Assembly (NCBI RefSeq): GCF_004336745.1
Contig: NZ_SJXD01000011.1
Span: 248,001 to 312,000, forward strand
Length of the DNA: 64,000 nt
From: Roseococcus sp. SYP-B2431
GTDB lineage: Bacteria > Pseudomonadota > Alphaproteobacteria > Acetobacterales > Acetobacteraceae
Reading direction: 5' to 3'
This document shows, one piece after another, positions 33,062 to 39,219 of this stretch. The stretch's first letter is position 1, and the number at the start of each line of letters is the position of its first letter. The translations under genes were made by a program, and so were the position numbers. The notes beneath the pieces are model-generated. The model was not told the origin of the DNA, made no database searches, and was given only the letters and a program-made list of their open reading frames with translations.

Positions 33062-35308
33062 CTACTCCCGCAGCACCACGACCTCCCCGGGCTGGACGCC
33101 CGTCCGGATCTCCACCCCCTCCGGCGTGGAGATCCCCAGCGTCACCGGCCGCGACACGATGCGCGCGCCCTCGCGCACCCGCACCACGCGCGCCCCCTCC
33201 TCGTCGCGCACCGCCTGCGGCGGCAGCACGACAGCGTCCTCGCGCTGATGGGTGATGATGGACAGGCTCGCCGACATGCCGACCGCGAGCCGTGCCCGCT
33301 GCGCCTCGCTGAGCTCGGCGATCGCGATGGAGACGGCGAAGCTCGGCATGCCGCGGCCGCCGCCGCCCTGGTCCGTGCTCGCCTGCGCCGCCACCGAGGC
33401 GACGCGGCCGTTCAGCACCTCGCCGGCAAAGGCGTCGCCGGTGACGGTCACCGCCTGGCCCGGTCGCACCGAGTTCACGTCGATCTCGTCCACCTGGCCG
33501 CGGACCAGGAAGCCCGCGAGATCGCCGAGGCTGAACATGGCCTGGCCGCGGCTGACCCGGCTGCCGGTCTCGATCGTCGGCGCCCGCTGGCCGCCGCCCG
33601 GCTGCTCGGGCGGCGCGAGCACGACGCCGGAGACGGGCGCCGTCACCTCGGCGTTGCGCAGGTCGGTCTCGACCTCCTGCAGCTTCGTCTCGGCATTGGC
33701 GAGCTCGAGTTCGGCGGTGCGCAGGTTCAGCTCGTCGCCGCGGGCGAGGGTGGCCGCGAGGTCCTGCTGCGCGGCCTGCAGCTGCAACTCCTGGTTCCGC
33801 TGCTGCTGGAGCAGGTTGCGATGCTCCTCGGCCGGGATGATGCCGCGGCCGAGCAGCATGGCGCTCTGCCCCACCCGCGCGCGGAGGTTAGAGGTCTCCA
33901 GCTCCGCACCGGCCAGCGTGCGCCGGGCCCGCGCCACCTCGAAGCCCTGCGCCCAGCTCCTCAGCTCGTCCACCTTCTGCCGCGCGCGGATCTCGGCGGC
34001 GCGGGCCTCGCGCAGCCGCGTCTCCACCTCGCCGCGGTCCAGGCGCAGCAGCACGTCGCCGCGCGTCACCGCGCCGCCGTAGCGGAAGAGCCGCTCCCGC
34101 ACCGTGCCGTCGAAGGGCGCGATCACGCTGACATTGGCGCCCGGCTCCAGCACACCCACGATCGCGATGCGCGCGCTGACCGGCTGCGCCGCGGCCGTCA
34201 TGGTGAGGACCCCGGCCGGCAGCTCCTGCGGGAAGCCCGGCCCGTTGCCCGAGGACTGCCAGGTCCAGGCGGCGACGCCGAAGACCGCGAGGCAGGCGAG
34301 CCCGATCGCGCCGGTCCGCATCAGCGCGAGGCGCCGGCCGGTGCGCGCCGCCCGCACGGCCGACTCCTCCAGCTTCAGGAAGGCGTCCTGCAGCTTCGCG
34401 TATTGCTCGGCGATCTCCGCCTGCAGGCGCTCGGTCTCCGTCACGTCGGAGAAGACGGCGGTGATCGCGGGCCGGCCCGCCTCCGGGCCCTGCCGCACGC
34501 GCCAGACCGTCGCCTCGACGGAGAGCCGCCGGCCGCCGGGGAAGGAGACCGTGCGCCGCTGGCCGCTCTCGCCGTGCAGCGGCGCCAGGACGGCGTCGAT
34601 GAACTCGTCCGTGCCCTCGCGCTCGTGCAGCATCGCGGCGAGGCTCCGGCCGACGGCCTCCTGCGGATCGAGGTCGAGCATCCGCGCGGCCGCCGGGTTC
34701 ACCGTCATGATGCCCGCGCCGGGCCCGATGGTGAGCACGCCGTCCGCCATGGAATCCAGGGCGCGGCCGTAGTCGGCGGCCATCGCCTCGCCCATCCCGC
34801 GCATCGCCTCCTCGCTCGCGGCGAGCTTCGCGGTGGCGGCGTGCAGCTCCGCGCCCTGGCGGCGCAGCTCGAGCTCGGCGGTCACGCGCGCGGCGAGGCG
34901 GGCGAGGCCGTCGCGCTGCGCCTCGCGGAGGCGGCGCGGCACGCGGTCCAGCACGCAGAGCGTGCCCAGCACCTCGCCCGCCCCGCTTCGCACGGGCATG
35001 CCGGCATAGAAGCGCAGCGCCTGCTCGCCCTGGACCAGCGGGTGGTCCCGGAAGCGGGGATGGCGCGAGAGATCCTCGATCTCGGTGAGGTTGTCGTTGG
35101 CGAGGGTCTCGCCGCAGAAGGCGTGCTCCCGCGGGCAATCCAGCGCGCTGGACGGCATGCCCTGCGCGCCGAGGATCCATTGCTGCGTGCTGTCGAGCAG
35201 CGCGACGTAGCCGATCGGCGCCTCGCAGAGGATCGCCGCGAGCCGGGCCAGGTCGTCGAAGGCGGGCGCCGCGGTCACGCCCGCGGCGAAGCTGCCCGGA
35301 TGGGTCAT
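33062..35308 (-). CDS. GAF-PAS sensory module fused to HlyD/MacA-type periplasmic adaptor
   Basis: A 748-residue protein with an unusual order of domains. Residues about 15-145 are a GAF domain (APIGYVALLD, REHAFCGETL, YAGMPVRSGAGEVLGTLCVLD split at the loop). Residues about 180-290 are a PAS domain (ALDSMADGVLTIG, TVNPAAARMLDLDPQEAVG, FSDVTETERLQ). A short coiled coil (about 291-322) leads to one membrane segment (331-349). Residues about 380-748 are a membrane-fusion protein: a lipoyl-like half (IAPFDGTVRERLFRYGG), a long helical hairpin (425-550), the second half (VTAPVSGVVLAPPEQPGG) and beta-barrel/MP domains. The sensors should be cytoplasmic and the adaptor periplasmic. The ATG lies 6 bases after the tolC stop. 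Confidence 0.88.
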   Translation of the reverse strand: MTHPGSFAAGVTAAPAFDDLARLAAILCEAPIGYVALLDSTQQWILGAQGMPSSALDCPREHAFCGETLANDNLTEIEDLSRHPRFRDHPLVQGEQALRFYAGMPVRSGAGEVLGTLCVLDRVPRRLREAQRDGLARLAARVTAELELRRQGAELHAATAKLAASEEAMRGMGEAMAADYGRALDSMADGVLTIGPGAGIMTVNPAAARMLDLDPQEAVGRSLAAMLHEREGTDEFIDAVLAPLHGESGQRRTVSFPGGRRLSVEATVWRVRQGPEAGRPAITAVFSDVTETERLQAEIAEQYAKLQDAFLKLEESAVRAARTGRRLALMRTGAIGLACLAVFGVAAWTWQSSGNGPGFPQELPAGVLTMTAAAQPVSARIAIVGVLEPGANVSVIAPFDGTVRERLFRYGGAVTRGDVLLRLDRGEVETRLREARAAEIRARQKVDELRSWAQGFEVARARRTLAGAELETSNLRARVGQSAMLLGRGIIPAEEHRNLLQQQRNQELQLQAAQQDLAATLARGDELNLRTAELELANAETKLQEVETDLRNAEVTAPVSGVVLAPPEQPGGGQRAPTIETGSRVSRGQAMFSLGDLAGFLVRGQVDEIDVNSVRPGQAVTVTGDAFAGEVLNGRVASVAAQASTDQGGGGRGMPSFAVSIAIAELSEAQRARLAVGMSASLSIITHQREDAVVLPPQAVRDEEGARVVRVREGARIVSRPVTLGISTPEGVEIRTGVQPGEVVVLRE

Positions 35309-35314
35309 TCCAGG

Positions 35315-38361: not shown

Positions 38362-38523
38362 CCCCCGATCGCCGGAGCGCGGATGCGCGAAGGCGTGAAT
38401 CGGCGGCCAGCCGCGCCCCCGATCGCCGAAGCGCGGATGCGCGAAGGCGTGAATCGGCGGCCAGCCGCGCCCCCGATCGCCGAAGCGCGGATGCGCGAAG
38501 GCGGGAACCGGCAGCCGTCACGC
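38362..38523. repeat. 54-bp tandem repeat, three copies
   Basis: Three adjoining copies start at 38362, 38416 and 38470. The first two differ by single bases (GCCGGAG versus GCCGAAG); the third diverges at its end. The unit is 18 codons, so the minus-strand frame stays open and encodes SRIRASAIGGAAGRRFTP repeats. It fills nearly the whole spacer between the ATPase and permease genes. Confidence 0.85.
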
Positions 38524-39219
38524 CGCATGCGCTTTCGGCTGGGGAGCGTGGGTCTGGTCGGCGAGGTGGCCCTGCGTCAGGACGAGGCGCCGGCGGCAGC
38601 GGGCCGCGACGCCCGGATCATGCGTGATGATGAGGACCAGCACCCCCATCTCGCGGTTCACCTCCTCGAAGAGGCCCATGATCTCGCGGCTGACGACCGG
38701 GTCCAGCGCCCCGGTCGGCTCGTCGGCCAGCAGCACGGCCGGCTCGCCCACCAGCGCCCGGGCGATGGCCACGCGCTGCTTCTGGCCGCCCGAGAGCATG
38801 TTGGGCAAATGCGCCAGGTGCTGGCCGAGCCCGACACGGGTGAGCATGTGCTCGGCCCGGCGGCGCGCCTCGGCTTCCGGCGTGCCGCGATACATCAGCG
38901 GCAGGGCCACGTTCCGCCAGGCATTGAGCCGCGGCATCAGGAAGAACTGCTGGAAGACGAAGCCGATCATCCTGTTGCGCATCGCCGACTGCTGGTCGAC
39001 GCCGGCGGCCAGCACGTCCTCGCCGCGGATGCGGTAGGTGCCGGCGGTGGGCCTGTCCAGCAGGCCCACGATGTTCATGAAGGTCGTCTTGCCCGAGCCC
39101 GAGCCGCCCATGATGGAGACGAGCTCGCCGGCCGCGAGGTCGAGGTCCAGGTCGTGCAGCACGGTCCGCTCGGTGGGGCCGATCCTGAAGCTTCGCCTGA
39201 TGCCGCGCAGTTCGAGCAT
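38518..39219 (-). CDS. MacB/LolD-type ABC transporter ATP-binding protein
   Basis: A 233-residue nucleotide-binding subunit. Walker A is GGSGSGKTT, the Q-loop is in VFQQFF, the signature is LSGGQKQRVAIARAL, Walker B is VLLADEPTGALD and the switch His is in IITHDP. The sequence is of the MacB/LolD branch that powers mechanotransmission exporters. It is co-directional with the permease, tolC and adaptor genes and 33 bp after lpxB. Confidence 0.94.
   Translation of the reverse strand: MLELRGIRRSFRIGPTERTVLHDLDLDLAAGELVSIMGGSGSGKTTFMNIVGLLDRPTAGTYRIRGEDVLAAGVDQQSAMRNRMIGFVFQQFFLMPRLNAWRNVALPLMYRGTPEAEARRRAEHMLTRVGLGQHLAHLPNMLSGGQKQRVAIARALVGEPAVLLADEPTGALDPVVSREIMGLFEEVNREMGVLVLIITHDPGVAARCRRRLVLTQGHLADQTHAPQPKAHAA

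Follow-up and report, generated by a model that had tools for sequence, protein, structure and literature searches.

Can an exporter that spans both membranes take a signal from the cytoplasm through its own adaptor? The question is raised by an exporter locus at positions 33062-39219 of the window, by which we mean the whole stretch of 64,000 nucleotides of Roseococcus sp. SYP-B2431 analysed here (contig NZ_SJXD01000011.1, positions 248,001 to 312,000). GAF and PAS domains are typical of sensor proteins. An earlier note on this DNA had placed both at the cytoplasmic end of a HlyD/MacA-type adaptor, encoded beside an ABC ATPase, a MacB-like permease and a TolC-family channel. We confirm that the 748-residue chain is one intact gene and that the order GAF-PAS-linker-membrane helix-adaptor is real. 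Its parts are as follows.

33062..35308, minus strand: adaptor gene, 748 aa, with GAF, PAS, helical linker, membrane helix and HlyD/MacA-type adaptor
34874..35269, minus strand: GAF domain, residues 14-145, with C58 and C65 within a CPREHAFC motif
34445..34774, minus strand: PAS domain, residues 179-288, with the D288-V-T290 motif at its end
34331..34447, minus strand: signalling-type helical linker, residues 288-326, 37-residue class
34262..34330, minus strand: membrane helix, about residues 327-349 (hydropathy 1.90 over 327-345; helix 290-354 in the fragment model)
33065..34201, minus strand: periplasmic adaptor part, residues 370-748 (HlyD_3 and HlyD_D23 profiles)

The domain order and boundaries given by the earlier note agree with Pfam profiles, folds, hydropathy and a model of a fragment. 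Both GAF and PAS were found within residues 1-300, each by profile and by fold; in each of the two fold-match lists a single domain took up all places, so the absence of other domains from them is uninformative. The adaptor matched MacA (4dk0) at 1.9e-10 with phmmer, and EmrA and MacA were among its fold matches. The organism's own genome holds a single copy of the adaptor, and four further matches there are GAF-only or adaptor-only parts. A frameshift, chimera or misassembly that joined a sensor gene to an adaptor gene would give a similar chain. We saw nothing in support of this, and full-length homologues in 9/20 same-genus genomes, with a low ratio of nonsynonymous to synonymous substitution rates (dN/dS), rule out a frameshift or chimera. 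An artefact is thus vanishingly improbable.

The exporter served by the adaptor

Profile matches bear out the matching partners that had been named beside the adaptor.

35315..36829, minus strand: outer membrane channel of the TolC family, 504 aa, with 6 bases between its gene and the adaptor ATG (OEP 2.7e-29)
37185..38528, minus strand: MacB/FtsX-like permease, probable start 38357 (MacB_PCD 3e-28, FtsX 1.2e-19)
38518..39219, minus strand: ABC ATPase, 233 aa (ABC_tran 1.5e-32)

The locus encodes a tripartite exporter of the MacAB-TolC-like (type VII ABC) kind, in which ATPase and permease are split. It has the FtsX-like permease with a MacB-like periplasmic core and the ABC ATPase that define type VII ABC exporters (MacB/LolCDE/DevBCA-like), and its adaptor shares with MacAB-TolC a single N-terminal membrane helix and HlyD-type periplasmic domains. 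We call it MacAB-like and not MacAB because the ATPase is a separate chain and the scores lie far under the NCBIfam cut-offs for MacA and MacB. Instead of a MacB with a fused N-terminal ATPase, the ATPase (38518-39219) and the permease (37185-38528) are separate open reading frames (ORFs). For the MacB equivalog the scores were 226.5 and 157.2 bits; the cut-off of 966 is almost out of reach for half a protein. The MacA equivalog scored 28.3 bits, with a cut-off of 342. The general adaptor model RND_mfp was narrowly missed (93.6 versus 94.9 bits). DevBCA was rejected as well, with scores under the cut-offs for DevA (185.2 versus 295.8 bits), DevB (39.4 versus 129) and DevC (22.9 versus 290.35).

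Homology of the permease starts at residue 53-61 in 11/13 relatives, at residue 25 in L069 and at residue 14 in L072 (the unrelated locus L074 was excluded). A 54-bp tandem repeat (2.9 copies, 96% match) lies at 38360-38516, where the ATPase and permease genes meet. It is in frame with an N-terminal extension of the permease to which 11/13 relatives have no match.

A modular cytoplasmic end

As the earlier note had supposed for MacA-type adaptors, seven sensor-free relatives have just a short cytoplasmic end, with the membrane peak starting at residue 7-39. A survey of other genomes found the same domain order, GAF-PAS-adaptor, in relatives of the same genus and the same family. The adaptor occurs in 12/20 same-genus genomes. 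Nine are full-length at 66-86% identity, with the GAF intact in four and decayed in five, and three are PAS-adaptors without GAF (G009, G016 and G002, the last in two pieces); a further genome, G011 (L022), has a broken remnant consisting of C-terminal pieces with a stop. Among other genomes of the family, GAF-PAS-adaptors were found in 2/15 (G025, G030). The named relatives are Rubritepida, Roseococcus, Sabulicella and unclassified Acetobacteraceae.

In the samples of the family, order, class and phylum, scoring was in most cases limited to three or four candidates in a genome, which makes the counts lower bounds. In the class sample, at least 5/385 genomes besides our own have PAS-adaptors, each in another alphaproteobacterial family and with near-full profile span, and Pfam confirmed PAS and HlyD in all five. 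The order of G602 yielded 3 further copies in 43 genomes, that of G798 two further copies, both in one of 36 genomes, and that of G708 one copy in 22 genomes (G1212 = L123), whose open frame starts after the PAS. The phylum sample gave matches in at least 8/398 genomes besides our own; seven are apparently adaptor-only by matched range, and three of these seven sequences were read; the eighth is G956, described below. No plasmid record covered 80% of the adaptor protein.

The cytoplasmic ends fall into several classes. GAF and PAS are both present in the window and in L006, L007, L008, L014, L016 and L017. A decayed GAF accompanies the PAS in L009-L013 and L112, and only the PAS is present in L015, L018/L073, L064, L065, L066 and L063 (incomplete at its start). 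L062 (G198, 1997-3721) has a decayed GAF without PAS, and L061 has neither domain. "Decayed" was judged from deletions and loss of the Cys motif, with Pfam run for L062 (GAF_2 14.6 versus 28.6 bits) and L112 (no GAF at 0.1) only. In G956 (other class; L111, 7511-9418) a different, canonical GAF (PF01590, 3.2e-12), without PAS, is fused at the same place to the same adaptor type. This adaptor has the linker motif LQMAF and adjoining ATPase, permease and TolC genes in the order TolC-adaptor-ATPase-permease. This case rests on one contig, as there were no further copies in 47 other genomes of its order and the assembly is 76% complete. Gene order is variable, and L107-L111 are all arranged as TolC-adaptor-ATPase-permease.

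The PAS is kept in 19/21 Acetobacteraceae adaptors of the adaptor tree. On this tree the PAS-only label needs 5 changes and the GAF-PAS label 4, so there were several losses or gains of the GAF. L019 and L022 were left out of sequence set A1. In the reading favoured here, the PAS would be the core input and the GAF an optional second input, retained by some lineages of this genus and lost by others; the GAF is absent or decayed in many relatives.

To compare constraint on the domains, dN/dS was calculated by domain (NG86, 11 pairs). Among the window, L006 and L007, values were 0.13-0.17 for GAF, 0.15-0.40 for PAS and 0.22-0.27 for the adaptor. By contrast, four pairs of the L009-L013 group had 0.03-0.05 for PAS versus 0.40-0.53 for GAF, and L010-L011 had 0.12 for PAS and 0.45 for GAF. 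Two pairs with L008 gave 0.28-0.29 for GAF and 0.18-0.23 for PAS. These data indicate that the GAF is kept in the lineage of the window and is eroding in a sister lineage with a strongly kept PAS.

The GAF of the window has a C58-x6-C65 motif, and this C-x6-C motif is found in 7/14 adaptors with a GAF-like N-terminus. The label "intact" for these seven rests partly on the motif, so a count of 7/7 intact GAFs with C-x6-C is circular. Among 24 other GAF matches (23 places, since L020 = L049), 19 have the FC cysteine, and the first cysteine is in 0/19; the remaining five lack FC. Residues 47-62 have a predicted local distance difference test score (pLDDT) below 50, too low for a distance to be read from the model. 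The pair may be a thiol or metal switch, and we treat this as a lead, no more.

The linker and a possible path for a signal

The D-x-T motif at the exit of the PAS is invariant in 23 distinct aligned sequences and is kept in the five PAS-adaptors of other families. Its aspartate is 18 residues from an LxxA[FY] motif in 13 sequences and 25 residues in 17, with no other length among these 30 (29 distances were taken by script and that of L125 by eye; L123, without in-frame PAS, was uncounted). The aspartate and the basic pair that precedes the membrane are 37 or 44 residues apart in 24/25 scored sequences; the exception, L110, has GR instead, which the script missed. The two linker classes differ by exactly one heptad. 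A continuous predicted helix at residues 290-354 in the fragment model spans the linker and the membrane helix. Just after the PAS, the ER in DVTETERL can be compared with the central ERT signature of the S-helix, as judged by eye only. On a tree of 29 rows, which omits the fragment L116, the most parsimonious history of the linker classes has two changes, and well-supported branches force only one. Two heptad-related lengths, with few independent events behind them, fit a signalling coiled coil (PMC6798134).

GAF and PAS might instead be ligand-free dimerisation modules that aid assembly of the adaptor around the permease. Such a role would suit the repeated loss of the GAF, the existence of the exporter without any cytoplasmic domain and the want of ligand evidence. 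However, signal transfer would predict two linker lengths one heptad apart, and both the D-x-T exit kept in five proteins of other families and the different GAF at the same place in G956 speak against a purely structural role, which we regard as rather unlikely.

We favour, at about even odds, inside-out control, with a cytosolic signal acting through the GAF-PAS adaptor to set ATPase stimulation and export. A cytosolic condition would alter a putative GAF-PAS dimer, and the change would run from the D-x-T exit of the PAS via a register-locked helix into the membrane helix. There it would alter ATPase stimulation by a presumed adaptor hexamer, and hence export. By analogy with MacAB-TolC, as many as six GAF-PAS units would be arranged around the two ATPases. 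Beside the observed domain order, conservation, modularity, linker lengths and constraint, we infer the dimer and hexamer, the topology of the assembled pump, the direction of the signal and its effect on the ATPase, and the ligand and substrate. The MacAB-TolC pump consists of a MacB dimer, a MacA hexamer and a TolC trimer, and MacB drives export from the periplasm (PMC5985334). Deletion of the cytoplasmic region or the membrane helix of MacA impaired stimulation of the MacB ATPase and abolished resistance in vivo, and this 2018 review describes the region as vital to the mechanism and unresolved in the structures then available (PMC5985334). The earlier note had proposed that the exporter senses a cytosolic ligand or redox state and passes the signal through the membrane helix. 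The route through the helix gains indirect support from the D-x-T motif, the two heptad-related linkers, the predicted helix and the MacA deletions (PMC5985334); the ligand, the redox response and the gating are hypothetical.

Several results weigh against inside-out control. Neither a ligand-binding residue nor a cofactor motif was found, and no matching LOV- or heme-PAS residues were found by eye, the only way they were sought. The exit motif of L125 is D-I-S, lacking the T of D-x-T, and linker length could be conserved by descent, with one or two independent changes. The full-length adaptor model is weak (mean pLDDT 61.3; predicted template modelling score 0.28; residues 331-420 below 50), so the domain arrangement and passage through the membrane are putative. 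Strong constraint on the PAS is not general, because the PAS is the least constrained part (0.40, versus 0.17 for GAF and 0.27 for the adaptor) in the closest pair of the window and L008-L014 has 0.54 for GAF, 0.46 for PAS and 0.25 for the adaptor. The sensor is dispensable for the machine, as the exporters of L061, Azospirillum, Rhizobium and Deefgea are sensor-free. The system is also rare, with strong adaptor matches in at least 11/299 genomes of the family sample (our own included) and at least 14/299 of the order sample (fragments in G011 and G433 excluded); 7/20 same-genus genomes have no adaptor match, two of these being 57% and 74% complete.

A wider reading, which we consider possible and hold tentatively, is that these are recurrent signal-gated tripartite exporters. 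The adaptor end would be a socket for a PAS, a GAF-PAS or, separately, a different GAF, the register-locked helix would convey the cytosolic signal across the membrane and so set ATPase stimulation, and in this genus the C58-x6-C65 pair that the GAF can add may make it a thiol or metal switch.

Neighbourhood, precedents and meaning

The adaptor could also work outside-in, reporting pump or periplasmic status, with PAS and GAF serving a separate regulator as docking or output platform. Flux-sensing transporters are a model for such reporting, and PAS and GAF domains also act as protein-protein modules. The helix connection is symmetric in direction, and MacA may relay periplasmic substrate to the ATPase (PMC5985334). 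However, the chain lacks an output domain, and neither a kinase nor a regulator turned up among the few neighbouring genes to which the scan was confined. We judge outside-in reporting unlikely. That inside-out control would need no separate regulator, as the earlier note had it, is not established.

The neighbours scanned encode LpxB, a class II aldolase, a carbon-nitrogen hydrolase, an acetyltransferase and a DUF2189 protein; four more queries had no match (one wrong frame, one overlapping hydrolase ORF). There are 33 bases between the end of lpxB (39253-40362, minus strand) and the ATPase gene downstream of it. Beside the exporter, an lpxB match was found in same-genus loci L069-L072 only, and in these four loci the four exporter genes are together with lpxB upstream. 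The downstream aldolase is Aldolase_II in Pfam, and its synteny in relatives is shown at the DNA level only. A 929-residue protein encoded at 28396-31185 (minus strand) had no Pfam match at 0.01. Between permease and tolC is one more gene.

36980..37231, plus strand: conserved small lipoprotein gene, 83 aa (lipobox LAGC, motif TGDPPIALP, conservation)

This gene is antisense to its neighbours, head-to-head with tolC at a distance of 150 bases, and its end overlaps the 3' end of the permease gene. The protein has no Pfam match. With tblastn it was matched in 16/19 loci, equal to 13/16 distinct genomes (three genomes are in twice), weakly in L067 (E 0.03); there was no match in L061, L062 or L030, and of these L030 does not extend far enough upstream. 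Outside the permease overlap, dN/dS was 0.17-0.68 for 15 pairs of six sequences (L071 omitted), values that have no control for antisense or non-coding conservation. The lipoprotein may be cargo of the exporter or act as its partner. Because its gene sits between the two pairs, and because the ATPase-permease and TolC-adaptor pairs are on opposite strands in L061 and L067, these pairs may be two transcription units, and the single operon proposed earlier for all four genes is doubtful. A promoter scan of 36700-39400 gave none and is uninformative for this organism.

MacAB-TolC of E. coli and A. actinomycetemcomitans has the same kinds of components, a MacB-like permease, an ABC ATPase, TolC and an adaptor with an N-terminal membrane helix. 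It differs in that the ATPase and permease are separate in the window and the adaptor has about 325 cytoplasmic residues, including GAF and PAS. Conventional ATPase-permease-TolC-HlyD operons of Azospirillum, Rhizobium and Deefgea plasmids encode the same four proteins in the same order, with adaptors 34-39% identical, but these adaptors have a short cytoplasmic end only. A GAF on a HlyD-type protein is also found in the GAF-HlyD-biotin_lipoyl proteins of SecA_DEAD/Peptidase_M50 loci, which were proposed in 2015 to be regulatory or sensory, Methylobacterium included, and whose loci are reported to lack an ABC transporter (PMC4452313). By contrast, the partners in the window are a MacB-like permease and an ATPase, and a PAS lies between GAF and membrane. 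Neither SecA_DEAD nor Peptidase_M50 was found among the four exporter genes and the scanned neighbours, genes further out being outside the scan. In PAS-coiled-coil sensor kinases and S-helix proteins, too, a helical linker comes after the PAS exit motif, and its lengths differ by a heptad (PMC6798134, PMC1592074), but here the output is a transporter adaptor and not a kinase or cyclase. Plug-in regulatory domains, PAS included, are known from MFS fusions (PMC10710835), where the domain is on the transporter itself; in the window it is the adaptor of a tripartite ABC exporter that carries it.

A search of the open-access literature, in which most papers were judged by their listing, gave no description of a MacB-like exporter whose adaptor has a PAS or GAF-PAS. 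The sole direct precedent that it gave for PAS/GAF adaptors is PMC4452313, and not PMC6504805, PMC2887384 or PMC10710835; neither "PAS domain" nor "GAF" was found in 300,000 of 747,799 characters of PMC8277102. GAF-HlyD fusions elsewhere are thus already known, and the PAS or GAF-PAS on a MacB-like exporter adaptor appears to be new.

How the cytoplasmic end and membrane helix of MacA control the MacB ATPase is an open question (PMC5985334). In the system described here, sensor domains are attached exactly at that point, and the two heptad-related linkers and sensor-free sisters make it possible to vary signal, linker length and ATPase independently. The presence of GAF and PAS on the inner-membrane tail of the adaptor suggests that the pump itself may be switchable by an intracellular signal. 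If this is true, export across both membranes would be controllable at the protein level by a cytosolic signal.
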